From positions 249,509 to 313,508 of the forward strand of contig DYJE01000001.1 in assembly GCA_020723285.1 (NCBI GenBank): a stretch of DNA of 64,000 nt, read 5' to 3'. The notes below the pieces were generated by a model, which was not told the DNA's origin, did no database searches, and worked only from the letters and a program-made list of their open reading frames with translations. Numbering within the stretch: the first letter of the stretch is position 1; the number at the start of each line of letters is the position of its first letter. Both the position numbers and the translations under genes were made by a program. Source of the DNA: Desulforapulum autotrophicum. GTDB taxonomy: Bacteria; Desulfobacterota; Desulfobacteria; Desulfobacterales; Desulfolunaceae. Positions 474 to 22,712 of the stretch are shown here, in pieces.

Positions 474-2882
474 TTAAGGAACAAGACTGTCGTTAAAGTA
501 CTTCACCGTCAGCCTGAAATAATAGGGCGCTGTGTAACCCCAGTCCGCGTCGGGATTGGGGTTCAGAACGAAATTCGGACTGGTTCCCGTTCTCAGAAAA
601 TTGAAATCGGAGATCCTGAAGAACACCTTGCCGGACCATATGGAGCCGGTGGAGGATCCTCGGCCCACCCACAGAATCCTGTCACCGCTGCCGCTGACCG
701 GCATGTGGTCGGTGGACATCAGAGAGAGGTTCACAAGTTCCGAAGCCAGACTCGTGTCGCCATCACTGCCCATGATGCCGTTGGGGCAGACATTGCTGCC
801 GGTGGAGCACCACTCGGTGGACACATGGGGCATACCATTTTCGTTACTGGGAATGCCGTTGGAATTGGGCATGTATTCCCAGGTGTATTCCACAGGACTT
901 CCGTTGGCGTACAGCTCGACACTGATGGTGTAATACCAGGTCAGATCACCGTTCACCAGGGGCTGCGACAGATCGAGACTGTACCAGTCTTCGTCGCCCT
1001 GGTAATCGATGTAGCCGGAAACCCAGGGCAATGAAACCACCACGGGGTTTGAACCGGCCTGTGTCGCACTCGCGGAATCCAGGTCGAAAACCGTGTCGTT
1101 ATACTTGAACGTCCCGGTCTGAGTGTTTGGATAGGTGATGACCAGCGAAGAGGTAAAATCATCTTCATCGTTTTCATCGTGGTAGACTGTGGTGGTATTG
1201 TCTTTGGGACAGATCCCCGGCGCGGCAGCCACATCCGTCACATTCCAGCTCAGATGGAATTCCGCGTCTTCCCCGTTATCATCCTGGAAGTCGTACACTT
1301 TCACGTAATACACGCTGTCTGTACTGGACTCGGGAACCAGAAACGACGTTTTGAGATCCACGGTCCTTTGATCCTCACCGCTGTTGAACACGGTTTTCTC
1401 AAAAGAGTTGACCCCCGCTTTCGTGATTTTCATGGCGTACTGAACCAGGTCGGTATCGGGAATATCCAGATTGAACGAAAGAACCTGTTTCCGAGACGCA
1501 TTGGCGGGTACGGTGACCATGTAATAATCCACGTCGGTCCGGTAGGCGATCTTACCGGTATGTTCCGCCGGTTCAGGCTGGGCCGTAAGGTCGATGGCAT
1601 TGTGGTCAACATCGTTTCCGATGTGTCCGTCACCGTGGACAACACTTTCATCGGCATCGGCAATCCCCGTAACGTCAACATCCGCCGTGTAAGGCGCGGA
1701 CTCTGAGACATCCGCACCGGACGCGGCCCGGACCACCAGGAAGTAAAGTCTCGACGTATCCAGCTTCATGGCCACCTGATACGTGCCATCGCCTAAGGGG
1801 CCGCCATCGTAATCATGAGAAAAATCCACGATTTCAGAGGTCAGATCAAGGCCGGTCAGGATTTCCGTGAACGAACGGAGTTCAAGACGGTAGGCGAGAT
1901 CGGAATCGCTTGAAAACGTCAGGTCCAGAATCTTGATGTCGCCGGGAACACTGGAATCGATTTCGTAGATATCCTCATCTTCAAAATAATCGATGGCGGC
2001 GTTCTGGAACATGCCATCGCCCATGGCTGTGGCGTCAAGGGGTGAGTCGTTATCCATGATTTCTGAAGCTACAACCTGATCGACACTGATGGTGTAGAAA
2101 GACGAGGTGTCGAATTCGTCCTTGCCGTCTTCCGTGACCACGGCGATGTATTCACCGGCAGGAAGGTAATGCATCAGATGGCTTTCCGTGAGGGTTCCCA
2201 TTTTCCGGATTTCCACAATATCCCCGTCTCCGTTGTAAAGCGTGATGTTCAGACGAACCGCCGAACCCTGAAGCCGGTCAAAATCGACAAAGATATCGTA
2301 AACCCCGTCAACGGTGGCCGTGACGCGGAAACAGTCCCCGTCGTCTTCGGAGTCGATGGAATCCCTTGCCGCGTCGCCGTTCATCACAAGGTCCACGGCT
2401 GTTGCAAAACTTCCGTTGCCGTCGGGCAGTCCCTTGTAATAGGCCGAAATGTAATACGGCCGGTTTTTCCCCGAATCGTCGTCCATCAGATCACGGACGT
2501 GAACATACAGATCCTTGGGCTCGTCGATGGGCACATCCACCTTGACGGTCACCGAAACCCGGCTGTCCACCGGGGCGTGATCTCCGGCAATCATCACCAG
2601 TTCGCCGTTTTCGTTTTTTTCATAAACATGGACCAAAAGGTCCACATCGGAGCGTGAGGTGTCGCTGGTGCATTTGATTTGTAAGATTCTGTCACGTTCG
2701 TTGGCACGGACATGGTAAAGGTCCACTTCAGCCACTTCAGATATTTCGCCTTGTATACGTTTTGCCGACACGGTATCTCCGCTTCCGATTTCCAGTTCCA
2801 CCACGTTCGACGAAGTCGACGGGCCGTCACTGGAACAGGCGGCGAGCCACAGTGCCATGATCATCACAATTATTTTTTTCAT
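474..2882 (-). CDS. Large lipoprotein with repeated PPC-like domains
   Basis: An 802-residue predicted lipoprotein: residues 1-16 form a lipoprotein signal with lipobox LAAC. The rest holds several blocks of about 100 residues with the D-x-D-x-Y-x-V pattern and all-beta character of bacterial pre-peptidase C-terminal (PPC) domains, for example DVDYYMV and DEDWYSL. No protease or other catalytic domain is visible, so a structural or binding role on the cell surface is inferred. A Shine-Dalgarno AGGTG precedes the ATG. It is the last gene of the 12-gene minus-strand run, 59 bases after the vWA lipoprotein gene, and shares its acidic, calcium-binding-like composition. Specific function unknown. 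Confidence 0.8.
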   Translation of the reverse strand: MKKIIVMIMALWLAACSSDGPSTSSNVVELEIGSGDTVSAKRIQGEISEVAEVDLYHVRANERDRILQIKCTSDTSRSDVDLLVHVYEKNENGELVMIAGDHAPVDSRVSVTVKVDVPIDEPKDLYVHVRDLMDDDSGKNRPYYISAYYKGLPDGNGSFATAVDLVMNGDAARDSIDSEDDGDCFRVTATVDGVYDIFVDFDRLQGSAVRLNITLYNGDGDIVEIRKMGTLTESHLMHYLPAGEYIAVVTEDGKDEFDTSSFYTISVDQVVASEIMDNDSPLDATAMGDGMFQNAAIDYFEDEDIYEIDSSVPGDIKILDLTFSSDSDLAYRLELRSFTEILTGLDLTSEIVDFSHDYDGGPLGDGTYQVAMKLDTSRLYFLVVRAASGADVSESAPYTADVDVTGIADADESVVHGDGHIGNDVDHNAIDLTAQPEPAEHTGKIAYRTDVDYYMVTVPANASRKQVLSFNLDIPDTDLVQYAMKITKAGVNSFEKTVFNSGEDQRTVDLKTSFLVPESSTDSVYYVKVYDFQDDNGEDAEFHLSWNVTDVAAAPGICPKDNTTTVYHDENDEDDFTSSLVITYPNTQTGTFKYNDTVFDLDSASATQAGSNPVVVSLPWVSGYIDYQGDEDWYSLDLSQPLVNGDLTWYYTISVELYANGSPVEYTWEYMPNSNGIPSNENGMPHVSTEWCSTGSNVCPNGIMGSDGDTSLASELVNLSLMSTDHMPVSGSGDRILWVGRGSSTGSIWSGKVFFRISDFNFLRTGTSPNFVLNPNPDADWGYTAPYYFRLTVKYFNDSLVP

Positions 2883-2941
2883 AGGTTCACCTGATCATCG
2901 GTTATTTGGGTTAATCTCATATGTGTATTTTTCATATCGAG

Positions 2942-4552
2942 TCACAGCGCTTCAAAACTGTCCACAATGACAGTCCGGTTCGCCGTATCGTTGAAGTTCA
3001 CCTCGATATCGGCCACCCGGTACACCGGATTGGATTCGGGCATGTCCTCGGGCACTTCCGCAATAAAGAAACGGATCACGTTCACTCCACGGGCCCTTCC
3101 GTCAGCGGCCAGAGTGTTCATGATGTCGATATTGGAAATATCGAAGGAGATCTGACGTCGCCGGGACTGGTTTTCCGTTCCCTGGTTCAGATCGATCAAG
3201 CCCAGATCCCTGATGTCATAATTGTAGCTGTACCGAGCGCGGATTTTCGAATCGTTCACCTTGACGTTGGTATGCCGCTGGACTTCAAGCCAGTCCGGCG
3301 TTCCGTCGTAATCCGAATCGTTGATGTACTGCTGCTCCAGGGGATTGGTGCCCATCATGAACTCGATGCCGTCGGGAATGCCGTCACGGTCCGTGTCCGG
3401 GTTGTTGTACCGTGTGCCTTTGATGACCTCTTCACAGTCCGTCATGCCGTCACGGTCCCTATCGAAAGTCTCGGCACCGTCGGGGCACCCGCTGTCCCTG
3501 GGATCATTTGGATCCAGGGCATTATCGAGGGTGCTCATCTTCCGTTCGAAATAATCGGACAGCCCGTCACCGTCCGTATCCCGCATGGTGGGATCCGTGG
3601 CCTGGCCCACCTCGTCCGGATCGATACGCCCGTTGTGGTTGAAGTCCACGTCCAGTTCCTCTTCATCGGTCAGGCCGTCCCCGTCGCTGTCCACATCCAC
3701 GATTTCGTTACCCGGCCTGACATTCAGGTTGCAGGCGATGATGAACTTCATCTGGTATTCCACCGTGAGACGCATGTCCACGATGTTGATGAAGTCGATG
3801 TCCCTCGCTGAACTGAACTCCGTATAAATACCGTTTCCGGCATTGGCCATGTTGGTCATGAGGTTCACCACGGTGTTGTAGTCCGCCTGGTTTCCCTGAA
3901 GCAAGGTGGACAGGAAGAAGGTGTGGAAATTGAAAAGGGCCACGCCCTGCTCTTCTTCCAGATTCTCCTGCATATCGTCCAGCGCGTTGTAGATCTGGTT
4001 GATCACCACCGAACCGCCGGGATCGGGCATGCCGTCGCTGAAGAAAAGCACGATGCATTTCATCCGGGCGATGTTGGCGCTCTGGGCCGCATCATTCCTC
4101 ATGCTGGCGATTTCAGCGATGAAATGCTGCTCCGCCGTCTGGATGGCGTTCTGGTAGTTGGTAAGGGAGGTGTTGTTGTAACCGTAAAGAACGTTCCGCA
4201 ACGTGTCGAGGTCGCGGGTGAATCCTCCGGTGGTTCCTCTCACGGTGTTGTTCCACAAAAGCACATCGAATTCCACACTTTCGTTGTCGATGTATTCCTG
4301 AATGAAATTCCAGGCCGCGTCGATCCGAATGTGGTTCGGATCCGAACCGGCCATACTGCCTGAGCAGTCGATGGCCAGCACGATGCGGATGGGAAAGTTG
4401 ATCACATCGGGGTTTTCAGTCAGAAAATCCCCTTTGAGTCGCACCTTGCTCCGGCTCTGGGCCCGTTCCAGTTCCGGATTCGAACACCCGGTCACCAGAA
4501 CTGTGGACATCACGAACAAACCTGTGAAGAACACCATCAAGGACTTACGCAT
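2942..4552 (-). CDS. vWA-domain lipoprotein with thrombospondin type 3-like repeats
   Basis: A 536-residue predicted lipoprotein with lipobox VTGC. The von Willebrand A domain starts near residue 55 with an intact MIDAS motif (D-x-S-G-S, in [12 protein letters not shown]). It is followed by a run of D-x-D-x-D-G calcium-binding repeats of the thrombospondin type 3/EF-like kind, then a beta-rich C-terminal region. The start was chosen at the ATG 9 bases after a GGGGAG ribosome site; longer in-frame starts lack one. It overlaps the end of the TSP3 gene upstream by 8 bases, so the two are probably translationally coupled. A metal-dependent adhesion or ligand-binding role at the cell surface is inferred from the domains. 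Confidence 0.85.
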
Positions 4553-5357
4553 CACACGCATCTCCCCTGCCGTCACCGTCGGAATCGGCCTGGCTGTCGT
4601 TATCATCGGACGGGCAGTTGTCGCAGGCATCGCCTATGCCGTCGCCGTCTGCATCGGTGTTGTTTTTGCTCTTACATCTAGGACAGAGGTCGACCTCGTT
4701 ATCGAACCCGTCGCTGTCCGAATCGTTGCAGCCGGCAAGATCCGCGTTGGCCACCAGGGGACAGGGATCGACGCTGTCCGGGGTTCCGTCACCGTCGTCA
4801 TCATCGTCACAGACATCACCCTCCCCGTCGTTATCCGTATCAAGCTGATCGATATTCGGGGCATGAGAGCAATTGTCCGTGGCGTTCACCAGATGGGGCC
4901 TGACCAGTTCGGGGATATTGTCTTCATTCATATCCGCATAGGCATCACCGTCAATATCATCGTCGCAGGCATCACCGATTCCGTCACCATCGGTGTCCGC
5001 CTGATCCACATTGGTGACGGTGGGACAGTTGTCGCAGGCGTTGCCCAGATCGTCCCCGTCACCGTTGCTCTGGTCGTTGGGGATCAGGATGCAGTTGTCA
5101 AGACCGTCCATGGTGCCGTCATCGTCGTTGTCGTCAGACACATAGGCCAGGGGGCCCAGGTTGTAGAAAACAAGGATGACGATCCCTCCGGCACCACCGC
5201 CGCCAGCACCGCCCGAAGGAGGCGCGCCGCAGCCGATCTCGTCGCATTCGTCCCAGTAGGCTCCGGGATCGATATCGGCGGCGTTGATCAGGCTCGCTTT
5301 GTAGCTGACGATGATCCCGGTCAGCATCAACATAAAAACCAGGAATAGTTTTTTCAT
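4545..5357 (-). CDS. Secreted thrombospondin type 3 repeat protein
   Basis: A 270-residue protein with an N-terminal Sec signal ([19 protein letters not shown]...), a short Gly-rich linker and then nine or so aspartate-rich units of the form D-x-D-G-D-G-x-G-D-x-C-D-N-C. This is the calcium-binding thrombospondin type 3 pattern, with the paired cysteines expected for disulfides. The protein ends within a repeat unit. Ribosome site GGAG sits 5 bases before the ATG. It overlaps the vWA lipoprotein gene by 8 bases. Such repeats usually act as rigid calcium-stabilised stalks; a spacer or surface role is inferred. Confidence 0.85.
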
Positions 5358-5428
5358 ATCATCTCCACTCTCTCACGTTATGGTTGTTGTCCCCCCGTTA
5401 TAGCCTCTATATCTGAAATACCTTTCAT

Positions 5429-6997
5429 CTACCGTGAGATGAAAAGGTACAGTTTCCTGCTCACAGTGGAATAGGATCCCACAATGACCCGCCCTCGGGC
5501 GTCGACCCACAAATGGTTGTATTTCCCGATGTAATAGGTGTCGTGAAGACCCGGTTCAATGCCCTGGGGACTGGTGATGTTGCTGAGACCCACATCTTCG
5601 GGAACGATGAGGTCTACGGACCACAATCCGCCGTCATCCCTTCGGGACACTTTCACCCGGCTGAAGAAACGGTTTTCCGTAAAATTCATCTCGTCGAAGT
5701 AAGCGGCCACGGGCCGGTTTCGGGAATCCAGGGCAAAACCCGCGAAACGTCCGCAGATGGTGTTGTAGTTCATGAACTCCGTATGCCATTCCCTTTGGAT
5801 GATGTCGTCGCCGTTTTCATCCACGCCGGTGACCACGTCCACCTGTTCGGCGTACTTGATCACAAAAGGGAGTTCCTCATCGGTGTCGATGAAATCGGGC
5901 AGGTCTTTTACCGCGTACACCACGGCGAGACGTCCGTCGGTCATCACGGCTCCTTTGATGTCCGCCACGTCGATACCGCTTTCGATGTATTCGCTTGGCC
6001 AGGATACCGTGCCGTTTTCGGCCACAACCCGCCGGGCCACCCTGAGCCCCCGGTCCTGAGCCGTGCCGTTGACGCTGTTGTCATGGGAATAGAACACCAC
6101 GGGATTGCCGTCAGCGTCGAGAACCAGATCGTTAAACGCCCCGCTGGCGCTCTGCTGGCCCGAGGCGTTGTTCTGGTAGGCGTTGCCCTGGACCTTCTCC
6201 TCACGGCCGATCATGTCCTGGACGCTGCCGTTCACAAAGGCGTTGACAGGATGGGTGATGAAATTCAGGTCCGGGTACTCGTAGTTGTAGGAATCCACCC
6301 CTTCGTAACAGAACTGGAAACTTAAAAACACGTTGCCGTCATCGTCGCCCCTGACACAGAGGTTGCCCTGGGCCAGACCGTCGACAAACACGGGATTCCG
6401 CTCAACATACCCGTAAGCCCCGATCTCGATACGCCAGGAGTCCGCACCGTCACGGACCGCCACCATCACATCCCCCTGGTTGTTCAGGTCCGCACCGGGA
6501 ACGATGACGGACTGTTTGAAAGCAGAGTAGGCCACCACGGGTTTTCCCCCGGCTATGGCGATGGAAATTTCAGCGATGTTCCGGGGATCTTCTGTTAGAA
6601 GGGTCACGGTTTCATCGGTGGTGTTGGCCGTATTGAGATAATACATGTCGTCCGCCGGGAAGGCCCTGTACATCAGGCAATAGGGATGGATTTCCACCGT
6701 TGCCGGATCGGAGTTCGGCGCGAAATAAGCGATGTGGACGATGCCCTGATCAAAGGTCATGGCGATCCGAGGATCGATGTAGGGGTCTTCCCCCTCTTCC
6801 GTTTCAACGGTCGCAAGATCCAGGACGGAATTGATGTCCCAGCTCACGCTGTCGGGAATGGTGGTGTCCCTGCTGAACGTCTTGCCATTGTCATCGGAGC
6901 AGCCGGAAACAAGAAACATCACAGCGGCAAGAAGAACGAACCCTGTCCGTTTCACGCTGACTGCAAACCTTCTGTTCTTATTTACGGCTGAACCCAT
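5429..6997 (-). CDS. Predicted beta-propeller-like lipoprotein
   Basis: A 522-residue protein with an N-terminal signal ending in lipobox LVSGC. The mature part has recurring strands of the type G-x-P-V-V-A-Y / G-N-V-F-L-S-F / N-R-P-V-A-A-Y about every 60-70 residues, as in sialidase-like or other beta-propellers. No catalytic motif was recognised. The start overlaps the end of the large TPR gene by 20 bases and is preceded by an AGGGA ribosome site, so it belongs to the same transcript as the trans-envelope machine genes. Function unknown; a surface or periplasmic scaffold is a guess. Confidence 0.7.
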   Translation of the reverse strand: MGSAVNKNRRFAVSVKRTGFVLLAAVMFLVSGCSDDNGKTFSRDTTIPDSVSWDINSVLDLATVETEEGEDPYIDPRIAMTFDQGIVHIAYFAPNSDPATVEIHPYCLMYRAFPADDMYYLNTANTTDETVTLLTEDPRNIAEISIAIAGGKPVVAYSAFKQSVIVPGADLNNQGDVMVAVRDGADSWRIEIGAYGYVERNPVFVDGLAQGNLCVRGDDDGNVFLSFQFCYEGVDSYNYEYPDLNFITHPVNAFVNGSVQDMIGREEKVQGNAYQNNASGQQSASGAFNDLVLDADGNPVVFYSHDNSVNGTAQDRGLRVARRVVAENGTVSWPSEYIESGIDVADIKGAVMTDGRLAVVYAVKDLPDFIDTDEELPFVIKYAEQVDVVTGVDENGDDIIQREWHTEFMNYNTICGRFAGFALDSRNRPVAAYFDEMNFTENRFFSRVKVSRRDDGGLWSVDLIVPEDVGLSNITSPQGIEPGLHDTYYIGKYNHLWVDARGRVIVGSYSTVSRKLYLFISR

Positions 6998-9900
6998 GGT
7001 ACATGTCCCTGGCCACCGGATGAATCCGGCGGTTCGATTCCGAAAGATTGAGGTTTCCCGGAAGGGTCTTGTATATCGCGTCCGCTTCCGTGTCGTGATG
7101 GTAATGTTTCAACAATGCCGCAAGGTTGATCAGGGCATCGGTGTCTTCGGGATTTTCCGCGAGAACATCCTTGAAGGCCTGACGCGCCGCGATGTCGTCT
7201 CCGATGTAGAGATCCGCAACGCCGATCAGCTTGTCCGCCCGGATTTTCAGTGATTTGCCCTTGCCAAGCTCCACGGCCTTGAACGCCAGCAGACGGGCCT
7301 GGGGATAGTCGCCCCGTTCGGCATAAAGATCGGCGAGGTTCATCATCAGCTCGGGATTTTTCCTGTCGTGGAACATTGTATAGTGAGCCTGGTTCAATTC
7401 CTCGTCTTTCAGGAACTGCTCTGCGATTTCAGAGCCTTCGGTCTTGCCGCCGAAATTCCCGGCGGTTTTCCGGGTTCCGCTGTAAAGTCCTGCGATTTCC
7501 GAATGGAGGAGGCCCCATTTCTCCGCCTGGGTTTTCCCTGTCGTCAGATATTGCTCCCCTTTGGTCATGTAACTCGCGGCCTGATCGTCCACCAGTTTTC
7601 TGTACTGGTCTTTCTGTTCGTCGGACAGGCCTTCGGGAAGAGGTGAATTTTTAAGAAATACGGAAAACTCCTTGTTGATCTCGTAGGCGAAATAGCAGGC
7701 CTTGAGCACATATTCCGGGCTCTGGCAGGCGATTACCGAGGCGTAGCCGCTTTCCAGGTTTTCCAGGAGCTTCGCTTTTTCCGCCACAACGGCGTCGTCG
7801 ATGACGCCTGAAAGACGGGTTTTCATGTAGGTGTCATAGGACCCCTGAACCGCGTTGAACGTCATGGCCGCATAGGCTTCCGCCATGTCCGGATCCTGCT
7901 TCACATAACCGGGTTTGAATTCCTTGATGGCGTCTTTGCGGTATGACAGGGCTTCCTTGTAATCCCCCTTTTCCCGTGCGTATTCCGCGGCAAGGGATAA
8001 AGCCCTCACACGTTCGGAAGGCTGCATTTCACCCAGTCCCTTTATAAGAACGTCCACGGCCCTTGATACATCCCCTGATTTTTTGGCGCATTCATAGATG
8101 CCGAACATGACCTCGGTCCGTCCCGGTGTTTTTTTCGGGGTTCGGTCAAGCACCATCATGAAATCTTCGGCGGCCAGACGGTTCTGCCCCATGGATTTCC
8201 GGATCTCCGCAGCCTGCCGGATGAACTCGGGCGTTTTGGCGTGTTTGGGAAGTCTGCGAGCGAATTCTTCCAGATACCGTGCCGTCACGCGGTACTGTGA
8301 CGCAGACACCGAGCAGTCGATCATGATGGCCAGAACGTCGGCGGAATGCTCCGATTCGGGATAGTACTTGATCAGCTTGTAACCGGCGGAAAACACGGTA
8401 TCCAGCTTGCCCTTGTCCTTGCTGGACACGATAAGGGCGTGAAGGGCCTGTTCTCCAAGGCCGGTTTCCTTGTTCTTCTCAACCACGTCCTCGATGCTCT
8501 GTTTCCCTAGTTCCCAGTCGTTCATGGCGTCGATGGTGAGGTTTGACACAATGCGTGATTCCGAGGCCTTGATCACATCCGCCACATCTTTCCGCACTTT
8601 TTCAGGGAAACGGGTGTCCTGCACCACTTTGCGCCCGAATTCAACCAGCCCGGAGAAATCCTCTTTCAGATGGTAGGCGTCGAGGGTTAAATGTACGGCG
8701 GATTCGGCGGCTTTGCCCTGGGTGTATTTGGCGATGAAATCCCCGAATTCCTTGATGGCGTCGTCGTATTTTCCGTCGTCATAGGCGATCCAGGCGACGT
8801 TGAACAGAATGTCCGGGACTCTGGGCGAGGTCGGGTTTTCCTTGACAAACAGATTGCCGTTTTCTTTCAGGCCCGACCGGGCATAGGCGACATCGTAGTA
8901 GTTCAGGTCGTCTTTTTTCTTCAAAGCGTTGTAATAGGAGATCACCACACTGTCCAGGAGTTCCTTTCTGTCGGGAACGTCACTGTCCTCTTTCTTGACA
9001 TCTTTGACCGGTATCGCCGCTGTTTTCGTGTCTGTTTCATTGCCTTTTTCCTTGCCGATTTCTTTGGCGGCTTCGACCGGTTCCGGCTTCACAGGCTGGG
9101 CAATTCGGGCGATAAGACGTTCATACTGTTTGCCCGCTTCAAGGAAACGGTTTGAAGCGAACAGCGCTTCAGCGTAGTTTGACAGCATATCCGTATACAC
9201 CGGGCTGTTCTCGAAGAAATCCAGATAGACTTTGTAGGCGTCTGCGGCGATTCGGTAACTGTCCGTGGATTTGTCGTTCCGCGCCCGGGTGTGAAGGTGG
9301 GTCACGATGTTCCGGGCGTAAGCCTCGTAATCCTTGAGATCCGCCGCCTTTTCCTCATCTTTCACATGGATGGTGTATTTTTCCTTCGTGAGAGCCCTGA
9401 CGATGATCTCCACATCCTTGTCTGCGTTTTTGTAGTCCGACAGGGCCTGGACGCATTCCACGATATTTCTTGCATATTCCAGCAACTGATCCTCGTCATG
9501 GCGAAGAGAGGCCAGGGTCCTGAATATTTCCACGCCATGGCGGTATTTTTTCTTGGCCATGTACCGTGACCCCAGTTTTTCGAGAACATAGGCGTACACC
9601 TGCCGCGACCAGCTGTATTTTTTAAAATAGGCCAGCGCCGCTTCGGGCGAATGGTCCTTGTAGACTTCGGGGTAGCAGTAGGCCATGTCCACCAGGGATT
9701 CCAGTTTGATGTCCACCCGTTTGTACGTGTCCACGTCGATTTCCTGGCCCGGTTCGCTGGTGGCCACCGACTGTTCGAACAGGCTGATGGCCTTCTCGAA
9801 ATCCCGGTTGTTCACATGGCTCCAGGCCAGTTTATACCGGGCGATGACAATGGCGGAGCTTGTTGGATAATCCAGCACCTTGGTGTAATGGCGGATGGCC

Positions 9901-10520: not shown

Positions 10521-12163
10521 TTGAAAAATATATCCCATTCTTCCATGCACGCGCATTTGTCTTCAAGAACGACCTTGTAGGTGTTCAGCTCGTCGGTCCA
10601 GAATTCGTCCTGAAACGGATAGACGGCGCTGTAATGTTTGGCCGCCTGCCGTCTGGTGCTGGTTTTATCCTCGTCTTTCCTATAATGGTACTGGTACACA
10701 CGCTGGTACATGTCGAGGCCGACTTCATAGGCCATGAGATCGGTTTTCTCCTCGTATTCCAGAAGCTCGTTGGCCAGGATTTCAAAACGGTCGCGCATGA
10801 GCAGCCGGAACTCCCGGTTGGCTTTTTCCATCTCAAGATTGTAGATCCGCTGAAGATAGGCTTTGAGCTGCGGGTCTTTGAGGGTTTCCACCTGTTTTTT
10901 CTCTTTGTCGACCAGGCGGAGGAAACGCCATGCGTCGTCAACCTTCTTCTGGCCCAGAAGCGCCAGAAGCAAGGGTCTGTTTTCCGTGAAATCTTTCCGG
11001 GTGTAGATATTGTCAAGGGCCTCCCTGTAATGCGCCCTGAACTCGTCGATGACGGACAGTGCCCGCTGGTAATGGCAGACGTCTTTGTAAATAAAGGATT
11101 TCAGGAGGAAATATTCCGGGGTGAAATAGTTGCTGTAAACCGGGGCTTTGAACGAATAGAGAAGGCCCATGGCTTTCTCCGGCTGGTTCAGCCGATACTG
11201 AACCCAGGACCGTTCCAGGAGATTTTGCGCCTGATACACGATATTGTCGCTGATCTTCATGTAAAGGTCGTCGGCGGCCTGATACTCCTTCTTTTCATAC
11301 AGCAGCCGGGCCAGGGTTTTCCTCACGTCGTTTTTCAGGTCCTCTCCCTTGAACGACGCGGCTTCGATTATTTTCAGGGTTTCGATGGCCGAATCAATTT
11401 TATCCCGGCTTACATCGTACAGCGCTTTCTGGAACAGGAACTCGTAATGGTAGTACGTGTCTTTCCGGATCTGGTTGAAATGCTGGTTGCCCCAGTCGTC
11501 AAACCCGTTTTCCCAGTCGAACACGCCCTGGTGGAAATGGATGAAATCATTCAGTTTGTCATCCACGAAACCGAATTCCTGGTCACAGATGGATTTCAAA
11601 ACGACCAGATCCCGGTCGTAAGGAAGGGTCCGTGTGATCTCCTCGAAAATCTCCAGGGAATAGTTGACGATCTGGACATCGGGTTTCCGGGTGATCAGAC
11701 GGGACAGGGTGTCCACCGCCGCGTGGGTCAGACCCATCTTCCGGAACGAGACTCCTAAAAAGAACTCGGCCCAGTCGTATTCATCGGCTGTGAATGAATT
11801 TTTGGAGATATAGTCGAAAAACAGGGGGGCCGCTTTCTCAAAATTGTCCCTGGCAAAAGTTTTGTAAGCTTTATCGAAAATTTCCGGATGCACGGTTTCA
11901 AGGGGTTTTTCCGTATCCTCTTTTTTTTCGGACGAAGCTTCGTCAACAAATGGCTGGACCGCTTCTTCGGATTTCGTCTCTTGTGAAGCGGAGTTCACCG
12001 GAGCAGCGGCTTTGCTATCCGCAGCGACAGGAGCCTTGACAACCGCTGTGGTGGCCGGCTTCACAGATTCAACGGCCTTTTCAGCGCAAAACGCGGAAGC
12101 GCCGATAAAGGCGGCTGTGAGAATGGCGATCAGTATGGCGGATATTCTAACGCTCATGGTCAT
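10517..12163 (-). CDS. TPR-like exported protein
   Basis: A 548-residue protein with an N-terminal signal (ILIAILTAAFIGASAFCA), an Ala/Lys/Pro-rich linker of about 70 residues, then degenerate TPR-like helices (for example residues 85-120 and 230-420). It starts with ATGA overlap on the barrel gene upstream and ends with ATGA overlap on the giant TPR gene downstream, so all three are coupled. An internal ATG two codons on is an alternative start. The likely role is a periplasmic adaptor between the inner-membrane motor and the outer membrane, inferred from its neighbours. Confidence 0.75.
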   Translation of the reverse strand: MTMSVRISAILIAILTAAFIGASAFCAEKAVESVKPATTAVVKAPVAADSKAAAPVNSASQETKSEEAVQPFVDEASSEKKEDTEKPLETVHPEIFDKAYKTFARDNFEKAAPLFFDYISKNSFTADEYDWAEFFLGVSFRKMGLTHAAVDTLSRLITRKPDVQIVNYSLEIFEEITRTLPYDRDLVVLKSICDQEFGFVDDKLNDFIHFHQGVFDWENGFDDWGNQHFNQIRKDTYYHYEFLFQKALYDVSRDKIDSAIETLKIIEAASFKGEDLKNDVRKTLARLLYEKKEYQAADDLYMKISDNIVYQAQNLLERSWVQYRLNQPEKAMGLLYSFKAPVYSNYFTPEYFLLKSFIYKDVCHYQRALSVIDEFRAHYREALDNIYTRKDFTENRPLLLALLGQKKVDDAWRFLRLVDKEKKQVETLKDPQLKAYLQRIYNLEMEKANREFRLLMRDRFEILANELLEYEEKTDLMAYEVGLDMYQRVYQYHYRKDEDKTSTRRQAAKHYSAVYPFQDEFWTDELNTYKVVLEDKCACMEEWDIFFK

Positions 12164-12879
12164 TTGTCTTTCAGGTATCCGTTGAGGATGTTCAGGGTTT
12201 CATCCGAATACGAAGGGCGGGCTCCAAGGTTGAAACCGTAACCCACGTTGACGCCGAACCACATGTTGTTCACCACCTCGTCCCCACGGTAGGTGATAAA
12301 ATCGCGCACCTCGAAAGCCAGGTTCATTTTCTGGTTGAGAAAGTACTTGATACCCGCGCCCATGCTTAAAATCAGTGCCGCTTCATCCTTGCCTTCGGTG
12401 ATGCCGTCGGAGTGGTTAACGGTGTAGAAATCAATGCCGCCTCCGGCCAGGAAGTAAGTTTCATGGTTCACCACCGTCTTGTTCAGCACCGCGTCCTTGC
12501 CGTAAAACGGCCGGATCACCAGATGGGTCAGGAGCTGGAACTTGGGTTCGTAATATTTCACCGGGGCTGCGCCAAAGTCTTTGAGGAGATCTTCGAGGAT
12601 GTTTTTTTCCGTGTTGAAATCGGCGTAAATACGCGCCACTTCCCAGGACAGGCGGTCGTCGAAGTGAAAGGTGTAGGCCATGCCGACGGGAAACACATGG
12701 TAAAAATCGTCGCTGGCGATGTAGCCTGTTGAAAACGCCAGTTCATGGTATTTGTGAAACATCTTTTCCTGAACGGCGAAGACGTTTTCCTCGCCTTTCA
12801 CATTGTCCGCCGAAACCACCGGGGCGCATAAAAAGATCAGAATCAGTGCATACAGAAGGACATGGGTTCGTCGCATCAT
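12160..12879 (-). CDS. Outer-membrane beta-barrel protein, Myxococcus-plus type
   Basis: A 239-residue protein with a Sec signal (LLYALILIFLCAPVVSA) and alternating amphipathic strands. It resembles the small outer-membrane beta-barrel family found next to AgmX proteins in Myxococcales and related deltaproteobacteria (the 'OMP_myx_plus' type). Typical elements are the early FAVQEKMFHKYHELAFSTGY segment, the mid-protein KYYEPKFQLLTHLVIRP and a late NMWFGVNVGYGFNLG strand. The ATG was chosen because AAGGAG lies 7 bases upstream; the longer form would need a TTG. It lies 11 bases after the AgmX gene and overlaps the next TPR gene. It probably forms the outer-membrane end of the complex. Confidence 0.75.
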   Translation of the reverse strand: MMRRTHVLLYALILIFLCAPVVSADNVKGEENVFAVQEKMFHKYHELAFSTGYIASDDFYHVFPVGMAYTFHFDDRLSWEVARIYADFNTEKNILEDLLKDFGAAPVKYYEPKFQLLTHLVIRPFYGKDAVLNKTVVNHETYFLAGGGIDFYTVNHSDGITEGKDEAALILSMGAGIKYFLNQKMNLAFEVRDFITYRGDEVVNNMWFGVNVGYGFNLGARPSYSDETLNILNGYLKDK

Positions 12880-12890
12880 CAAAAGGCTCC

Positions 12891-15407
12891 TTAAAAACCG
12901 GTGACGTCGAAAACAAAGGGATAGGAAACAATAACGTCCGCACCCTGGGGTTGAGGGAATTTCCAGCCTTTGATGGCCGAAATGATGCAGGCGTGGATCT
13001 GACTGGATTTCACGGTGGAGGATTTGATTTTCACGTCACCCACACCGCCGCTCTGGAGAATGGTCCATTCGAATTCCACACGACCCATGAGGCTGGGATC
13101 GCTCACCAGGGCCGACTCATAGCACCCGTTGATTTCATCCATATGGTCGTTGATGACCTTGGCCACGGCTTCGCGGCTGATGCCACCGCCACTGGCCCGG
13201 ACTTTTTTGGCCACCGGCGCGGCCACCACGGCCTTTACGGCACGTTTACCGGCTTTACCGGATTCCATGGCCGCCACGGAACCTTTTCCGCCGATGCCTG
13301 CGCTTCTGTAAACACCGGCCCCGCCTTTGTTGTTGATCACGCCGCCCGATGAAATGGCGATCTTGCTGTCTCCCAGGCTGCCCACGATACCGCCCAGTTT
13401 CACGTTGGCTTCATTGCCTCGCCGGCTGGTCACGGCGTCCATGTTGGTCACCGAGGCCAGGGCTTCGTTGGGTGCGATGCTGATGCCGGTTTTCTTGCCC
13501 AGGGCCGCAAGCAGTCCGACCTGGTTCACGTTCTTGTTCACCACGTTCCCGGCTTTGCCTGAACCGGTATCCGCCGGTTCAGAGCTCCGGGTTTCCACCT
13601 TCGGGCTTGACTGCTCTCGGGCCGCCGTTTTCAGGGTTTCTTTGGGTTCTTCTTTTTTCGCGAGTTCCTGTTTCACGGTTTTTTCAGGGTTGATCACAGG
13701 CGAAGGAAGAACGGGTTTGGGTTTCGGCAGGGGTTTCACCGGTTTTTTAATGTCTTCGGTATCCACTTTCACAAAAAAGGTTTCGGGATTCTTGAATTCC
13801 GATTTGTCCGGAAGTTTCACGGAATATGAAAACACGATGAGAAAGATCAGGTGGAAGATAAACGCCCGTGAACCGTACTTGAACGCCTGGGATTTCAATA
13901 CTTTTTGATGCAGGGGAACCACCGGGGCGGCCGGGTCCAGGGTGACCGGGTCCGGAGCCAGTACGCTTTTCCGGATCACGTAATCGTAATACCCGTCGGA
14001 GAGGTTCAATTCACCGCGAACGGGCAGAAGGGATGTGTAAACGGACGATCCGGAACCAAGCCCCTTGGGTTTCGACCCCATGTCCGCCTTGAGTTCCTTG
14101 TCTCCGGCTTTGTTGATGGTTCCAAGGAGCTTTTCGGTGAAGTAAATCCGGGTTCCCTGGGTTTCACTGTGGTGAACTCGGCAGAACGTTTCCTTGCCGT
14201 CCACCATCATGTGGTCCGTTTCGTTCTTCAGATGGGCGATGGAAACCAGGTTCCCGCCTTTGAATTTGATGATCTGGAGCACGTTATCTCCAGCGGTTTT
14301 ATCCTTAGATGCCCCATCGTTCTTGGACAGGATGTCACGAAGGCGGAACCGAGCTTCGCAATCGTCCTCGTCTTCATCCTCATCATCCACCGCCGATGCA
14401 AAAAAACCTGAGGGGAACGAATTCAATTCTTTTTTTGAAGGTTTAGCGGCTTCAACCTCCACCTTTCTTTTGTCAGGTTCGGGTCTTTGGTCCTGGCATT
14501 CTTTTTCAGACGGCTTCACATCGAGCGGCTGCTCGTCTTCCAGGGTTTGAGGCTGAACAACAGGAGTTTCCGGTTTTGTTTCAGAGACAAGCCCATAAGG
14601 CGAAGGGCGTTTGACCGTTTCACCGGGCTCATTCATTCTTACAGGCTCTTCAGGTTTCTGGATCACCGGCTGAACAGCGGGTCTGAACCGGTCGGTCACT
14701 TCATCCCTGGAACGAGACGCAACGTTCGCAGCGGCTGTGACAGACTGAGGCTTCTCTGTTTTCTCTTCAGGCTTTACACCGGTTTGATGGGTGAGAAGTT
14801 CTTCAATGCTGTCGAAATCCAGGTCGTCGTATTGATCCATCAAGGTGAGAAGATTACGGACGATGGCCGGTTGCGGTTCTTCCTTGATCTCCGGTTTCGC
14901 TTTCTCCTGCTGAACTTTGAGCGGTTTTGAAACACTGGCCGTCGGGACCGTTTCAGCGGCTTTTTTGGCCATGGCCGGAACAGTCACCGTGTCCATGGGA
15001 GCAAGCTTCGGAATGATCGGCTCGTCGGTATTCATGGCGGTCATCTTCTTCAGTTTGGCCTTGACGGTGTAACGTCCGATCTTGACCACGTCAAACGATC
15101 CCACGGCGCTTTCCGACACGTCACGGTTGTTGACGGTGAGACCGCCGGGCCGGCCCAGGTTCACCACCCGGATACGGCCGTTATGAATGATGAATTCCGC
15201 CTGGATGTCGTCCAGATCCGGATCGTCCAGAACGAGATCGGCAAAGGCCGAACCGCCCACTTTCACCGATGAGCTGTCAAAACAGTCCCAGCCCAGATAG
15301 GTTTCACCTAAAAAGATGTAAAACTGGGACACAAATCCGGCAACCGCGGGTGTCATGGTCGTTCTGTCCATTTCATTTCGTTCGATCATCATGTCTCTCA
15401 TGGTCAT
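12891..15407 (-). CDS. FHA/AgmX-PglI trans-envelope protein (GltG/GltJ-like)
   Basis: An 838-residue modular protein. An N-terminal FHA-like domain (about 25-120) precedes a long Pro/Glu/Lys-rich region. A single membrane segment near residues 510-530 (FIFHLIFLIVFSYSVKLP) leads to a periplasmic Pro/Lys linker. The C-terminal ~100 residues match the AgmX/PglI TonB-like domain (GGGISREAVAKVI, YESALV, GWKFPQP). This layout is that of Myxococcus GltG/GltJ-class proteins, which couple the AglRQS proton channel to the outer membrane. AGGG lies 9 bases before the third codon (ATG at 15401), so that may be the true start. The adjacent ExbB/ExbD genes supply the presumed energiser. Confidence 0.85.
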   Translation of the reverse strand: MTMRDMMIERNEMDRTTMTPAVAGFVSQFYIFLGETYLGWDCFDSSSVKVGGSAFADLVLDDPDLDDIQAEFIIHNGRIRVVNLGRPGGLTVNNRDVSESAVGSFDVVKIGRYTVKAKLKKMTAMNTDEPIIPKLAPMDTVTVPAMAKKAAETVPTASVSKPLKVQQEKAKPEIKEEPQPAIVRNLLTLMDQYDDLDFDSIEELLTHQTGVKPEEKTEKPQSVTAAANVASRSRDEVTDRFRPAVQPVIQKPEEPVRMNEPGETVKRPSPYGLVSETKPETPVVQPQTLEDEQPLDVKPSEKECQDQRPEPDKRKVEVEAAKPSKKELNSFPSGFFASAVDDEDEDEDDCEARFRLRDILSKNDGASKDKTAGDNVLQIIKFKGGNLVSIAHLKNETDHMMVDGKETFCRVHHSETQGTRIYFTEKLLGTINKAGDKELKADMGSKPKGLGSGSSVYTSLLPVRGELNLSDGYYDYVIRKSVLAPDPVTLDPAAPVVPLHQKVLKSQAFKYGSRAFIFHLIFLIVFSYSVKLPDKSEFKNPETFFVKVDTEDIKKPVKPLPKPKPVLPSPVINPEKTVKQELAKKEEPKETLKTAAREQSSPKVETRSSEPADTGSGKAGNVVNKNVNQVGLLAALGKKTGISIAPNEALASVTNMDAVTSRRGNEANVKLGGIVGSLGDSKIAISSGGVINNKGGAGVYRSAGIGGKGSVAAMESGKAGKRAVKAVVAAPVAKKVRASGGGISREAVAKVINDHMDEINGCYESALVSDPSLMGRVEFEWTILQSGGVGDVKIKSSTVKSSQIHACIISAIKGWKFPQPQGADVIVSYPFVFDVTGF

Positions 15408-15447
15408 TCACCCTAAAATGTATGGGCTGTTCAGCCGTTTAAAGCTT

Positions 15448-15771
15448 TTAGTGTTTCACCGGCCCTTTGACTGCGTCCGGTTTTTCATCGATTTTGCGGA
15501 TGTCATGGGATTCCAGAATCTCTTTTCTGTAGTTTTCCCGGTACGTCAGCATGGATTTGACCTGATTTTTTTTCCTCTGAAGAAGATAAATGGCCCCGGA
15601 TTTCAGGGCCTGTCCCGTCACATAGGAGTTTCCGAAGTCGATGCGGGTCAAGAGTTCGTCCGGCGCTGGTGCTTCCTTGGCTTTGGCGTCTTTGGTTTCA
15701 GCGGCATACGCTGTGGGAGAACCGAAAATCAGTTCGATGAAAAACACGATCAGGCACATTCTTTTCAACAT
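15448..15771 (-). CDS. Small exported protein of the ExbD-AgmX locus
   Basis: A 107-residue protein with a signal peptide (MLKRMCLIVFFIELIFGSPTAYA) and a short, charged, mostly helical mature part. The start was set at an ATG 6 bases after GGAGG; a longer frame would overlap the ExbD gene. It sits between the second ExbD gene and the AgmX gene. No family was recognised. Its fixed position inside the operon suggests a periplasmic accessory of the proton-channel complex; this is inference only. Confidence 0.7.
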   Translation of the reverse strand: MLKRMCLIVFFIELIFGSPTAYAAETKDAKAKEAPAPDELLTRIDFGNSYVTGQALKSGAIYLLQRKKNQVKSMLTYRENYRKEILESHDIRKIDEKPDAVKGPVKH

Positions 15772-15794
15772 CGTCCACCTCCCCGTTTTCACCC

Positions 15795-16268
15795 TCATTC
15801 CGTTTCCACCACACCGAACTGGAAATTGGGATACCCCGCCCGTCCGGCTGTTTTCACGATGGCGTTCACCACCTTGAATGAATGCTCCTTGTCGCAGAGA
15901 AAGAGGATATGCTCTTTTCTTTCCGCGATGTTCACGTCCTTTTTCAAGGTGTCCGCCACATCCCTGTAGTTCTTCAGGGCATCGTACAGTTTGTCGAGTC
16001 CTTCGACGTTTTCCCCTTTCACCGTGGCAATGACGTTGCCGTCCAGCTTCAGTTCATTCCGTGTGAGAACCAGCCGGATGCTGTCTTTGTAATCCAGCTT
16101 GGATGTGGACTGGGGCAGTTTCATATCTCCGTCGAGGCTCATCTGTTCGGGGTTGTTCGAAAAAGAGAAAAGAAGAAAGATCAAAATGATGGTGAACATG
16201 TCCATCATGGATGTCAGCTGAAGTTTCGGAACCTTCGATGAACCTGTCCGTTTACGTCCCAGAGCCAT
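15795..16268 (-). CDS. exbD: ExbD/TolR family protein (second copy, AglS/AglQ-like)
   Basis: A 157-residue protein with a short cytoplasmic N-terminus, one membrane segment (MFTIILIFLLFSF) preceded by the conserved L-T-S-M-M-D-M motif, and a periplasmic domain. The Asp just before the helix is at the position of the proton-carrying residue of ExbD/TolR. ribosome site GGGGGA precedes the ATG. It lies 8 bases after the first ExbD gene. With the ExbB-type protein it should form a proton-driven stator; a pair of TolR-like proteins beside one TolQ-like protein is also the arrangement of Myxococcus AglRQS. Confidence 0.88.
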   Translation of the reverse strand: MALGRKRTGSSKVPKLQLTSMMDMFTIILIFLLFSFSNNPEQMSLDGDMKLPQSTSKLDYKDSIRLVLTRNELKLDGNVIATVKGENVEGLDKLYDALKNYRDVADTLKKDVNIAERKEHILFLCDKEHSFKVVNAIVKTAGRAGYPNFQFGVVETE

Positions 16269-16276
16269 GATTCCCC

Positions 16277-16789
16277 CTATCCCACTTTCCCTGAAAGGAC
16301 GACATTGGGAAAAAGTTCGGCGTTGTTCGCAGAGCGCGCCGTATCCATGGTCCGGATGATGGTGCCGTAAGCCACCTGCTGGGTGGGAACAAGAATCACC
16401 GTGTCACTCTTGGGATACTTGTCTTTGATATACTGGAGATGCTGGGAAATTTTCTCCATGGGGTAAACCTCGGGATTTTTCACCGGCATCTCCGTTTCAA
16501 GCTTCACCAGATCGTTGTACGACAGTTCATCGCATGTAGCGGTGAGCACCACGGCTTTTTCTTTCAGCTCCACGATCACCGTGACTTTGGCGTCGGCTTT
16601 CGAAGGCTTGCCTTTCGTGGTAGCCGATGTGGATGAAAGAACGGGAACGGAGGTGTTGATGGCCTTGATGTGGTAAAACGAGGCGGATAACAATAAAAAG
16701 GGAATGAGCACAAGAAACATGTTCATGACCGGAACGAGTTCCAGTTCGTCATCCCCGATATCTTCACGGCGTCGTGATCGTAAGGCCAT
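16277..16789 (-). CDS. exbD: ExbD/TolR family protein (first copy)
   Basis: A 170-residue ExbD/TolR homologue: charged cytoplasmic start, the motif L-V-P-V-M-N-M-F leading into a single membrane helix (LVLIPFLLLSASFY), then a periplasmic domain. The residue aligned with the usual catalytic Asp is Asn (MNMF, against MDMF in the second copy), so this copy may be structural rather than proton-conducting. AAGGAG lies 7 bases before the ATG. It is 4 bases from the ExbB-type gene. Confidence 0.88.
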   Translation of the reverse strand: MALRSRRREDIGDDELELVPVMNMFLVLIPFLLLSASFYHIKAINTSVPVLSSTSATTKGKPSKADAKVTVIVELKEKAVVLTATCDELSYNDLVKLETEMPVKNPEVYPMEKISQHLQYIKDKYPKSDTVILVPTQQVAYGTIIRTMDTARSANNAELFPNVVLSGKVG

Positions 16790-16793
16790 GATC

Positions 16794-17423
16794 CTACTCC
16801 TTTTCTTCCCGTTTCATGGACGTCAGAAGGTTGTACAGGGCCAGGGCTTTTTCCTCGAACTGGCTGATGATGTGATCGCCCCGGTTGTTCAGGATGTAAT
16901 AGGCGATCAGACAGGGAATGGCCACGATGAGCCCGAAGGCCGTGGTGAGCATGGCCACGGAAATCCCTTTGGCGAGGATTTCCTGCTTCATGGCCGCGTT
17001 GGCGCTGCTCACGCCGTCGAAGGCGGAAATCAGACCCTGGATGGTTCCCAGAAGCCCCAGGAGTGTGGCGATGTTGGCGAACAGCGTCAGGTAGTTGATC
17101 CGGGCCTTGACCACGCCGGTTTCTCGCATGATGTTCTCTTCAAGGACCATTTCGATCTCTTTGTCCCGTTTGTCCGCTTTCATCATGCCGGACTTCAGGA
17201 TGCGGCCCAGGGGATGGTTTTCAATTTTCGAACATTCCTCAAGAGCCCCCCTGTAATTCATTTTTTCAAGAAGCCCGGAAATTCTCAGGTAAGTGCTGTC
17301 CGCGTTCAGTTTGAGTTTAAAAAACAGAAATGCCGCCCGTTCACAGCTGATGGCAAGAGCCGTGATGGATACAGCCAGAATGACATACATAAATGGACCG
17401 CCACTGTTAAAGAATGCAAACAC
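16794..17423 (-). CDS. exbB: MotA/TolQ/ExbB proton channel protein (AglR-like)
   Basis: A 209-residue inner-membrane protein of the MotA/TolQ/ExbB family. One helix lies near the N-terminus (MYVILAVSITALAISCERAAF), a cytoplasmic domain follows, and two C-terminal helices carry the family pattern LLGLLGTIQGLISAF and AMLTTAFGLIVAIPCLIAYY. A GTG start was chosen because GGGGAGG stands 5 bases upstream; the ATG 30 bases earlier has no ribosome site. It is the first gene of the 12-gene operon and lies behind a sigma-54-type promoter. Role: proton-driven energising of the AgmX-containing envelope complex, by analogy with Tol-Pal, TonB and Agl/Glt systems. Confidence 0.88.
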   Translation of the reverse strand: MFAFFNSGGPFMYVILAVSITALAISCERAAFLFFKLKLNADSTYLRISGLLEKMNYRGALEECSKIENHPLGRILKSGMMKADKRDKEIEMVLEENIMRETGVVKARINYLTLFANIATLLGLLGTIQGLISAFDGVSSANAAMKQEILAKGISVAMLTTAFGLIVAIPCLIAYYILNNRGDHIISQFEEKALALYNLLTSMKREEKE

Positions 17424-17777
17424 GTAAACCTCCCCGCTTGCTTTACTGTTCATTATTTTTGTTAGATGAGATCAAACGTTCACGTCTGTCTGAGCGCTCT
17501 GCAACATGCATGCCGCCAGCCAAACCTTGAAAACTTTGGATTTTCAGGTTTCAGACGATTGTAAACGCCCCCGGAGGAGTTCCTGGATGTCAATCCTTGA
17601 TCAGCGCGCAATTCACCGTTTATATTAGTGCGGGAGCGCGCATGCATATGTTCCTTAATCACAGAACATCGCCTGGATCAAGCTGAATTTTTACGGTTTT
17701 TAAAAAAAATAAACACTGATCATATGTAGTGAGCGGTAGCGAAATGTAATCATGGCGATGATGAAATCGTGCCGTTT
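17424..17777. other. Intergenic region upstream of the ExbB-led operon
   Basis: No convincing gene lies here. It contains the sigma-54 element listed separately and, at about 17607-17642, an inverted GCGCGC pair around an AT-rich centre that could be an activator site. The few short frames present are not supported by ribosome sites or recognisable protein sequence. Confidence 0.6.
17500..17515 (-). promoter_or_regulatory. Sigma-54 (-24/-12) promoter
   Basis: The minus strand reads CGGCATGCATGTTGCA. GG and GC are separated by exactly 10 bases, the -12 part TTGCA is perfect, and the -24 part CGGCAT matches TGGCAC at four of six positions. Transcription would start near 17488, about 65 bases before the chosen GTG. 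Such a promoter needs an enhancer-binding activator, which is not encoded in this window. Confidence 0.6.
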
Positions 17778-19067: not shown

Positions 19068-19373
19068 GGATATATTCCCACTCTTGTTGAAGGGTTCAAT
19101 GTCATTTTCCAAAGCTATACAGATGCCTGTTCCTCATCGGACGATATAAAATTACGACATATCGCCATACTGATCAAATAGAAACAACTATTTCCGTTCT
19201 TCTGTCGTCACCTGCCCTCATTACGAATTTTTGTTTCGATGCAAAACAGGTTGGAACACCCGGCATGAACCGCGTTCATAATTCCAGACATCACACCGCA
19301 CATTCTGGCATGATTTATGTTAATGATTTGAAAGCAGAATAAAATAAGAAAAGGAGCCGACAAGGAGAAAACC

Positions 19374-21160: not shown

Positions 21161-21389
21161 CGTCATCTCCTTGAGCATGAATAGATTTTAAAAACTATGG
21201 ATAAAAACTGAGGAGACCGAAAGAACCATACGAACCATGTCAGGACGGGATGATTCCTTGGTCGTTTATGCTCTTAACACGGTGAACGTTGAAGGATCAA
21301 CCCCAAACTTGATCATGCGCTGCCTGGACGGGTGACACTTGTTTCAGTTTTTAGCAATCTCCCGACCCTTCTTCGAGAGGGTGCCTAAG

Positions 21390-22558: not shown

Positions 22559-22712
22559 AAAAAAATTCTCCAATGGTGTAATGTTTCAAATTAAAAAAAC
22601 GGCCATGGGCTTCCCTGCTGACAAGGAAGCCACGACAAACGAGAAAGACGACCTGGCCCCTCCAAGTCGCTTTCATATCCATCATCACATCAATAACCAG
22701 ACGGAAACGGGC

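Follow-up and report, generated by a model that had tools for sequence, protein, structure and literature searches.

What would a motor of the Myxococcus gliding type do in a bacterium where it is encoded next to its own set of surface proteins? This question is raised by a 64,000-nucleotide stretch of the 5.44-Mb genome of Desulforapulum autotrophicum (assembly GCA_020723285.1, contig DYJE01000001.1, positions 249,509 to 313,508; here, the window), in which twelve genes run in one direction along the minus strand from position 17423 down to 474. A sequence-only reading had described this run as a trans-envelope machine resembling the Agl-Glt system of Myxococcus xanthus, followed by genes for possible surface cargo. 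We found that the twelve genes are a conserved unit. With somewhat better than even confidence, we read the operon as encoding a proton-driven machine of the Agl-Glt type that is self-contained, spans the envelope, and serves its own surface adhesin complex, in attachment or cohesion rather than gliding. It may show what the Myxococcus-type gliding engine did before it drove gliding.

A twelve-gene operon for a predicted motor, envelope assembly, and surface proteins

All twelve predicted open reading frames were confirmed. The run is as tight as had been described, with gaps of at most 71 nt across its 11 junctions; however, exact ATGA overlaps occur at 3 of these rather than at many. In gene order, the products are as follows (all on the minus strand).

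16794..17423, minus: AglR-like ExbB/TolQ-type proton-channel subunit (PF01618, 3.3e-28; alternative start ATG 17453)
16277..16789, minus: AglQ-position ExbD-like protein, membrane Asp replaced by Asn (PF02472, 3.5e-14)
15795..16268, minus: AglS-position ExbD-like protein, membrane Asp retained (PF02472, 1.3e-10)
15448..15798, minus: CglF-like small protein, apparently exported (NF033764, 4.9e-6, 26.5 bits, cut-off 90)
12891..15407, minus: GltG-like protein with FHA domain, membrane helix (by eye), long linker, and AgmX/PglI C-terminal domain (NF033760, 5.8e-32)
12160..12879, minus: outer-membrane beta-barrel of the TIGR04565 family (62.7 bits, cut-off 60)
10517..12163, minus: GltC-like protein, 548 aa (NF033756, 1.9e-27, 96 bits, cut-off 450)
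6978..10520, minus: GltD-like large TPR protein, 1192 aa, apparently exported (TPR families; likely start 10520, with an ATGA overlap with GltC)
5429..6997, minus: beta-propeller lipoprotein with a predicted PLL-lectin-like fold (start 6997 or GTG 6955)
4545..5357, minus: TSP3-repeat protein, apparent signal peptide, MtsC-like (PF02412, 1.7e-23; NF047638, 178.7 bits, cut-off 350)
2942..4561, minus: MtsD-like lipoprotein that combines TSP3 calcium loops with a vWA domain whose MIDAS is complete (VWA_2, 5.9e-8; NF047639, 108 bits; likely start 4561)
474..2882, minus: tandem beta-sandwich lipoprotein, PPC/collagen-binding-domain-like (lipobox Cys; fold match to the ColG collagen-binding domain)

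The GTG start of the AglR-like gene at 17423 is preceded by GGGGAGG and agrees better with the starts of its homologues than does the ATG at 17453. The CglF-like gene is a component that the sequence-only reading had not named.

The operon is conserved as a block

To follow the operon in other genomes, contigs were scanned with the GltC alignment, a procedure that relies on two GltC peptide patterns and that returned 30 loci. All twelve genes are present in the window's order in 15 of them, another 11 are collinear as far as they extend before a contig or locus end, 3 belong to a rearranged, divergent clade (f57), and 1 (L053) is an exception. Beyond these loci, the window itself has the complete order, as do three more genomes from the family that includes Alteromonadaceae bacterium Bs31. 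In two f57 genomes (L096 and L057), the TSP3-vWA-PPC or vWA-PPC genes are placed before AglR. The gene maps omit matches under 30 bits, and the family alignments took only those with E below 1e-10. Near-duplicates (L037/L038) and loci fetched twice (L023/L046, L021/L053, L004/L041, L017/L050, and others) are included in the set; GltG and PPC of L048 and the vWA gene of L051 are split over frames, and the PPC genes of L035 and L051 are cut. Since the order recurs in distant genomes, a run of chance neighbors was rejected. With the single exception named, the lipoprotein genes are conserved beside the motor genes in the loci found.

The loci are labelled Desulfobacterota, Nitrospirota, and Gammaproteobacteria; the labels include Desulfobacteraceae, Desulfosarcina, Desulfosudis, Desulfatitalea, Deferrisomatales, Thermodesulfovibrionia and Nitrospirae metagenome-assembled genomes (MAGs), and Alteromonadaceae bacterium Bs31. 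The distribution is patchy. Of 58 relatives, counting the own genome, 5 have GltC. Across the phylum, 8 of 394 genomes (the own one again among them; four families) match it at E 1e-59 or better, and four more matches are short (E 3e-6 to 2e-4). At E 1e-20 or better, the vWA profile matched 8/394 genomes, and these are the identical eight. The probability of this co-occurrence by chance would be 7e-17 if genomes were independent, a value that is too generous, since the eight genomes represent no more than four families. Five of the 8 carriers match the propeller profile strongly and over nearly its whole length, and two of the three f57 genomes match it at about 1e-28; the third, whose contig ends inside the TPR gene, has no propeller match listed. 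A further 19 genomes match only part of the propeller profile. Strong matches were obtained in 4 of the 144 genomes of the Bs31 family, Bs31 among them (a fifth match, 7e-11, is short). The samples of Bs31's phylum (1/299) and of G447's phylum (1/198) returned the query genome only. No relative was found among plasmids or viral contigs, and no locus in the genome-contig scan was labelled Myxococcota.

When the proteins are joined for tree building, the gammaproteobacterial loci come out as a single, fully supported clade. In that tree, the two Nitrospirota loci are placed with Desulfobacterota loci at a support of 1.00; in the core-only tree, one of the two placements drops to 0.11. Their position suggests transfer or misbinned MAGs.

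The predicted motor axle pairs Asn with Asp

One ExbB-like and two ExbD-like proteins in a row constitute a motor of the AglR/AglQ/AglS type, and the proposed ExbB-ExbD-ExbD channel was borne out by Pfam (MotA_ExbB, 3e-28; ExbD, 4e-14 and 1e-10). A grouping of these proteins with ordinary Ton or Tol systems would have spoken against the sequence-only reading. Instead, the AglR-like protein scores 72 bits on the TolQ equivalog model (cut-off 221) and 44 bits on that of ExbB (cut-off 206), and 18 AglR-like proteins form a clade separate from the eight other MotA/ExbB-family proteins found in the same genome (tree, split support 0.99). PDB sequence searches with both ExbD-like proteins matched no ExbD.

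The AglQ-position membrane site is Asn in 25/25 alignment rows that cover it (2 of the 27 rows end before the site and were omitted), and the AglS-position site is Asp in 27/27 rows as counted by alignment; "AglQ" and "AglS" are assigned here by gene order only. At the site of the AglQ-position Asn, the genome's five remaining ExbD/TolR-family proteins carry Asp (by eye). Myxococcus AglQ and AglS are both said to carry a membrane Asp (PMC9389320), so the pair of Asp residues that marks the Agl-Glt machinery is absent here. In Myxococcus, an aglQ D28N substitution is reported to abolish proton conductance and to paralyze the machine (PMC3858216). This naturally occurring Asn/Asp pair would allow a clean test of the number of proton sites, one or two, that such motors require.

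The putative envelope assembly consists of relatives of Glt and Cgl proteins

Two NCBIfam models exceed their cut-offs in the operon: TIGR04565, for the barrel (62.7/60 bits), as had been proposed, and NF033768, for the GltG-like protein (107/40 bits). This last protein had been described as an FHA/TonB-like AgmX protein. Its FHA domain (1.6e-4; 22.5 bits, cut-off 20.7; FHA chains matched in a PDB search) and AgmX/PglI C-terminal domain (3e-31) stand, and a TonB_C-type tail was matched weakly; however, identity with GltJ/AgmX was rejected, since the GltG model gives 111 bits and the AgmX/GltJ model 42 bits. The GltC and CglF models match 10/10 and 17/17 aligned members of the GltC-like and CglF-like families, respectively. 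The CglF model has a length of 88, near the 89 aa of GltF, and we take CglF and GltF to be the same protein.

Of the giant TPR proteins originally proposed, one holds up at 1192 aa; the other is the 548-aa GltC-like protein. M. xanthus GltD has a similar size to the former (1191 aa; PMC3169522). No GltD model matched the large protein, and its likeness to GltD consists in size and TPR families. Relatives of AglR, AglQ, AglS, GltC, and GltG are therefore present from the core set defined by Luciano et al. (AglRQS with GltC, GltD, GltE, and GltG; PMC3169522), along with GltD as qualified above, and no separate GltE was seen in the operon. GltI, GltK, GltE, and CglB were not seen among the twelve genes, and no dedicated genome search was made for them. 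GltJ, an MglA effector (PMC12288465), was looked for by its AgmX-type tail, and the genome's only such tail is that of the operon's GltG. Thus, from the proposed likeness to AglRQS-GltG/I/J, the kinship with Agl and Glt proteins was retained through profile matches, while GltI and GltJ fell away. In the gammaproteobacterial carriers (G446, G878, G879, and G881), three more AgmX-type tails each score above cut-off, in frames of about 320 to 350 aa outside the operon.

The putative surface proteins have adhesion-type folds and resemble cohesion proteins

The lipobox Cys is kept in all aligned rows of the propeller (18/18), vWA (17/17), and PPC-like (14/14) families. TSP3 repeats (1.7e-23) and a vWA domain (5.9e-8) are present as had been read from the sequence. 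The vWA domain has a complete MIDAS (D88, S90, S92, T138 or T157, and D199) that is invariant in 17/17 rows; its profile found nothing in the PDB at E 0.001.

The propeller-like and PPC-like guesses hold at the level of the fold. The propeller model (predicted local distance difference test [pLDDT] of 80, predicted template-modeling score [pTM] of 0.83) aligns with a PLL lectin at Z 27.8 over 304 residues (root mean square deviation [RMSD] of 2.8) and with the Photorhabdus PLL/PHL lectins generally at Z 26-28 over about 304 residues (RMSD, 2.6-2.9). Other propellers listed, integrins included, score lower (Z 21-25.5). The PLL/PHL lectins are seven-bladed and mostly bind fucose. In the PPC-like protein, residues 153-269, to which the fold result is limited (model pLDDT of 72 and pTM of 0.55), match the collagen-binding domain of ColG at Z 15.2 (106 residues; RMSD, 2.1), and that of the ColH type is matched as well; PF04151 was detected in 1 of 14 members of this family.

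NCBIfam names MtsC and MtsD as cell-cell cohesion proteins. The MtsC model matches 14/14 aligned members of the TSP3 family and the MtsD model 17/17 of the vWA family, and the two relatives are adjacent in all 15 complete scanned loci. The mts locus of Myxococcus (MtsC and MtsD) was reportedly described as a cohesion locus by Zhang in 2007, and it is presumably the same locus as Glt cluster G5. That cluster holds a gltD homologue, MXAN_1327, whose function is given as not known (PMC3169522). A citing sentence in PMC11980579 links "MstC" (spelled thus) with cohesion, social motility, and development. A likeness of the vWA protein to CglD was set aside because the match is confined to the TSP3 repeats. 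By eye, the window's TSP3 protein ends after its repeats and has no MYXO-CTERM-type tail. The f57 clade differs in this respect: its TSP3 proteins (two rows; L096 3996-4928 and L097 9457-10392) have a Cys-hydrophobic-basic end that looks like a MYXO-CTERM-like sorting signal by eye.

How the machine may work

The localization of the parts, their assembly into a single complex, the energization of the surface set, and a role in adhesion or cohesion are proposals that build on the gene content, order, conservation, folds, and invariant residues described above. AglR and the mixed AglQ/AglS axle would form the inner-membrane motor, in which only the AglS-position subunit has a proton-accepting Asp; by analogy with related motors, proton flow through AglR would turn or stroke the axle. 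GltG would couple the motor to the envelope, with its FHA domain in the cytoplasm and its TonB-like tail spanning the periplasm to the outer-membrane part. AglR contacts GltG in Myxococcus (PMC3169522 and PMC3858216), and GltG may by analogy transmit force to the outer-membrane assembly. This assembly would be composed of the CglF-like protein, the barrel, GltC, and the large TPR protein, and would hold, expose, or drag the propeller, vWA-MIDAS, TSP3, and PPC-like proteins. In Myxococcus, GltC binds the barrels GltA and GltB (PMC4488436) and the Glt complex retains the vWA surface protein CglB (PMC13104615 and PMC12288465), which suggests that the assembly here could likewise hold the vWA adhesin. 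Movement or exposure of the surface proteins by the motor is proposed from gene linkage. The likeliest output would be force-assisted attachment to neighboring cells or to a polysaccharide or solid surface.

Several points weigh against this reading. The equivalog models for GltC, GltG, CglF, CglD, MtsC, and MtsD match at E 5e-6 to 2e-52 but all under their cut-offs (in bits, GltC at 96 versus 450, GltG at 111 versus 650, CglF at 26.5 versus 90, MtsC at 178.7 versus 350, and MtsD at 108 versus 800); therefore, the proteins are relatives of the Myxococcus parts rather than certified members. This kinship was drawn from profile models. Generic TSP3 repeats contribute to the MtsC/MtsD signal: with these removed, the vWA part still matches MtsD at 8e-8, and the N-terminal part matches MtsC at only 0.002. 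Binding of sugar or of another ligand does not follow from a shared fold. At L053, GltC and the TPR gene occur without the rest, and because the scan finds only loci with the GltC patterns, motor loci without surface genes could be missed. Misbinning could affect the Nitrospirota records, which are MAGs. Finally, core and surface distances are correlated (r 0.78; 0/5000 permutations), which common descent alone could explain.

Alternative functions

The alternative that survives best, although we consider it unlikely, is a full gliding-motility machine, in which the motor moves adhesins along the cell as Agl-Glt and CglB do in Myxococcus. Some Desulfobacterota do glide (Desulfonema and the cable bacteria), which favors this idea, as do motor and transducer relatives that are the same as in Myxococcus and a vWA adhesin with a MIDAS. 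Luciano et al. speculate that bacteria with AglR, AglQ, and AglS plus GltD, GltE, GltF, GltG, GltC, GltA, and GltB are potential gliders, and Bdellovibrio glides without GltH, GltI, GltJ, and GltK (PMC3169522). However, no GltI, GltJ, or GltK is found among the twelve genes, the genome has no second AgmX-type tail, and the core alone is held unlikely to drive motility (PMC3169522). The small GTPases point both ways. Stand-alone PF00025 frames of about 200 to 240 aa, the size of MglA, occur in 10 of 11 carriers, and in this genome an MglA-like GTPase has an MglB-like neighbor; in the remaining carrier, Bs31 (G446), PF00025 is found only in frames of 911 aa (IF-2-like by eye) and 455 aa, neither of MglA size. 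As PF00025 matches 11/11 carriers yet also 12/14 control genomes, an MglA-type GTPase was dropped as a mark of gliding.

The GTPase genes of this genome lie past the right end of the window, at about 325 to 330 kb (C68), where two MglA-like GTPases and an MglB-like protein are close together (L088 2958-4008 and 7521-8135); the former were recognized by eye and by the small_GTP model, and the latter by NF052242 (4e-15, below cut-off).

An Nfs-like system, in which the motor drags or packs surface polysaccharide bound by the propeller and PPC proteins, would draw on the lectin-type propeller fold, on Agl-Nfs, which moves spore-coat polymer in Myxococcus (PMC3858216), and on genes that look by eye like sugar-nucleotide genes in one carrier (G020), from about 3.4 kb past the PPC gene (L020 6459-12490). 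The vWA-MIDAS and TSP3 features better suit adhesion, and we hold this function to be improbable. Less credible still, and rejected here, is an ordinary Tol/Ton energizer for envelope stability or uptake with unrelated lipoproteins. Its folds are shared (ExbB and ExbD are common to both, and the weak TonB_C-type tail would fit), but the TolQ and ExbB cut-offs are missed by far, the genome has separate paralogues, no TonB-dependent receptor or Pal was found among the twelve by Pfam, and the lipoprotein genes are linked. Least of all do we credit surface genes that are merely co-transcribed and work independently of the motor: physical coupling of the motor to the surface set is a proposal, but the same 8 of 394 genomes carry both parts and linkage is kept in the rearranged f57 clade.

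Relation to known systems

We compared the operon with systems already described. It shares with the Agl-Glt machinery of M. xanthus an ExbB-ExbD-ExbD motor, a GltG relative with FHA domain and TonB-like tail, relatives of GltC and CglF, an outer-membrane barrel, a large TPR protein, and a vWA surface lipoprotein. The Myxococcus parts are spread over clusters G1, G2, and M1 (PMC3169522), whereas here they form one operon of twelve genes. Further differences are that there is one barrel, that GltI, GltJ, and GltK were not seen, that Asn occupies the AglQ position, and that the vWA protein is MtsD-like, with no match to a CglB model.

The occurrence of the core outside myxobacteria is already known: Luciano et al. 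report it in gammaproteobacteria, Geobacter, and others, mostly bacteria without documented gliding, where its function is unknown (PMC3169522). Their core is likewise found in a single region with a patchy distribution and likely transfer, while the operon described here adds a CglF-like gene, a barrel, and four surface-protein genes. In that paper, gltF, gltA, gltB, and gltH are given only for Myxococcales and Bdellovibrionales, and its main text contains neither "von Willebrand" nor "thrombospondin."

With the mts locus of Myxococcus, the operon shares a TSP3 protein and a vWA/TSP3 protein, albeit at scores below cut-offs and with a TSP3 protein that lacks the MYXO-CTERM tail. A second vWA precedent is a group of proposed motor-driven vWA force transducers encoded beside tolQ-like and paired, unlike tolR-like genes and TPR (PMC12204202). 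Those are tethered to the inner membrane; the vWA protein of the operon instead carries a lipobox and TSP3 loops, and the transducer-type protein here is GltG. The Agl-Nfs spore-coat machine has a motor of the same class that acts on a surface polymer. However, it operates during sporulation and relies on the gliding system's AglRQS (PMC3858216), whereas the motor here is inside the operon.

Searches of open-licence full texts, supplements excluded, showed no paper that describes this surface set alongside the core. Within the reach of those searches, the new features are a fixed module of four surface genes, CglF-like and barrel genes in cores outside the myxobacteria, the Mts likeness, and the Asn/Asp axle. 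The AglRQS-GltCDEG core (GltE not seen) is now tied, in order, to four adhesion-fold surface proteins and to relatives of cohesion proteins, and this linkage spans loci labelled as three phyla and 4/144 genomes of one gammaproteobacterial family. A tentative extension, for which we see a real but minority chance, is that the twelve-gene unit is a stand-alone, perhaps ancestral, form of Agl-Glt: a proton-powered adhesin machine for cohesion between cells or with surfaces, with a one-proton-site axle, that would predate gliding and spore-coat winding and would have spread between phyla as a block, with the mts genes and one Glt-like cluster of Myxococcus as its descendants. The role of the engine before gliding becomes testable on a single operon.

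Genes around the operon

Directly upstream of the operon, positions 17778-19112 (minus strand) encode a LarA-like nickel-pincer isomerase of group 22 (NF052515, 461.5 bits, cut-off 400), with a relative at the same place in a genome of the same family (G001). Farther upstream, at 20333-21178 and 21443-22573 (both minus strand), an OmpA/MotB-like protein is encoded beside a rhodanese-domain protein. Just past the end of the operon, positions 1-422 hold two tandem copies, at 231-base spacing, of a dispersed repeat of about 170 to 190 bases, for which 60 matches are listed in the same genome. In G001, the operon is followed by a lipoprotein-like gene and a gene that weakly matches the TSP3 protein (1e-4; L018 3298-5370 and L017 18941-19591).

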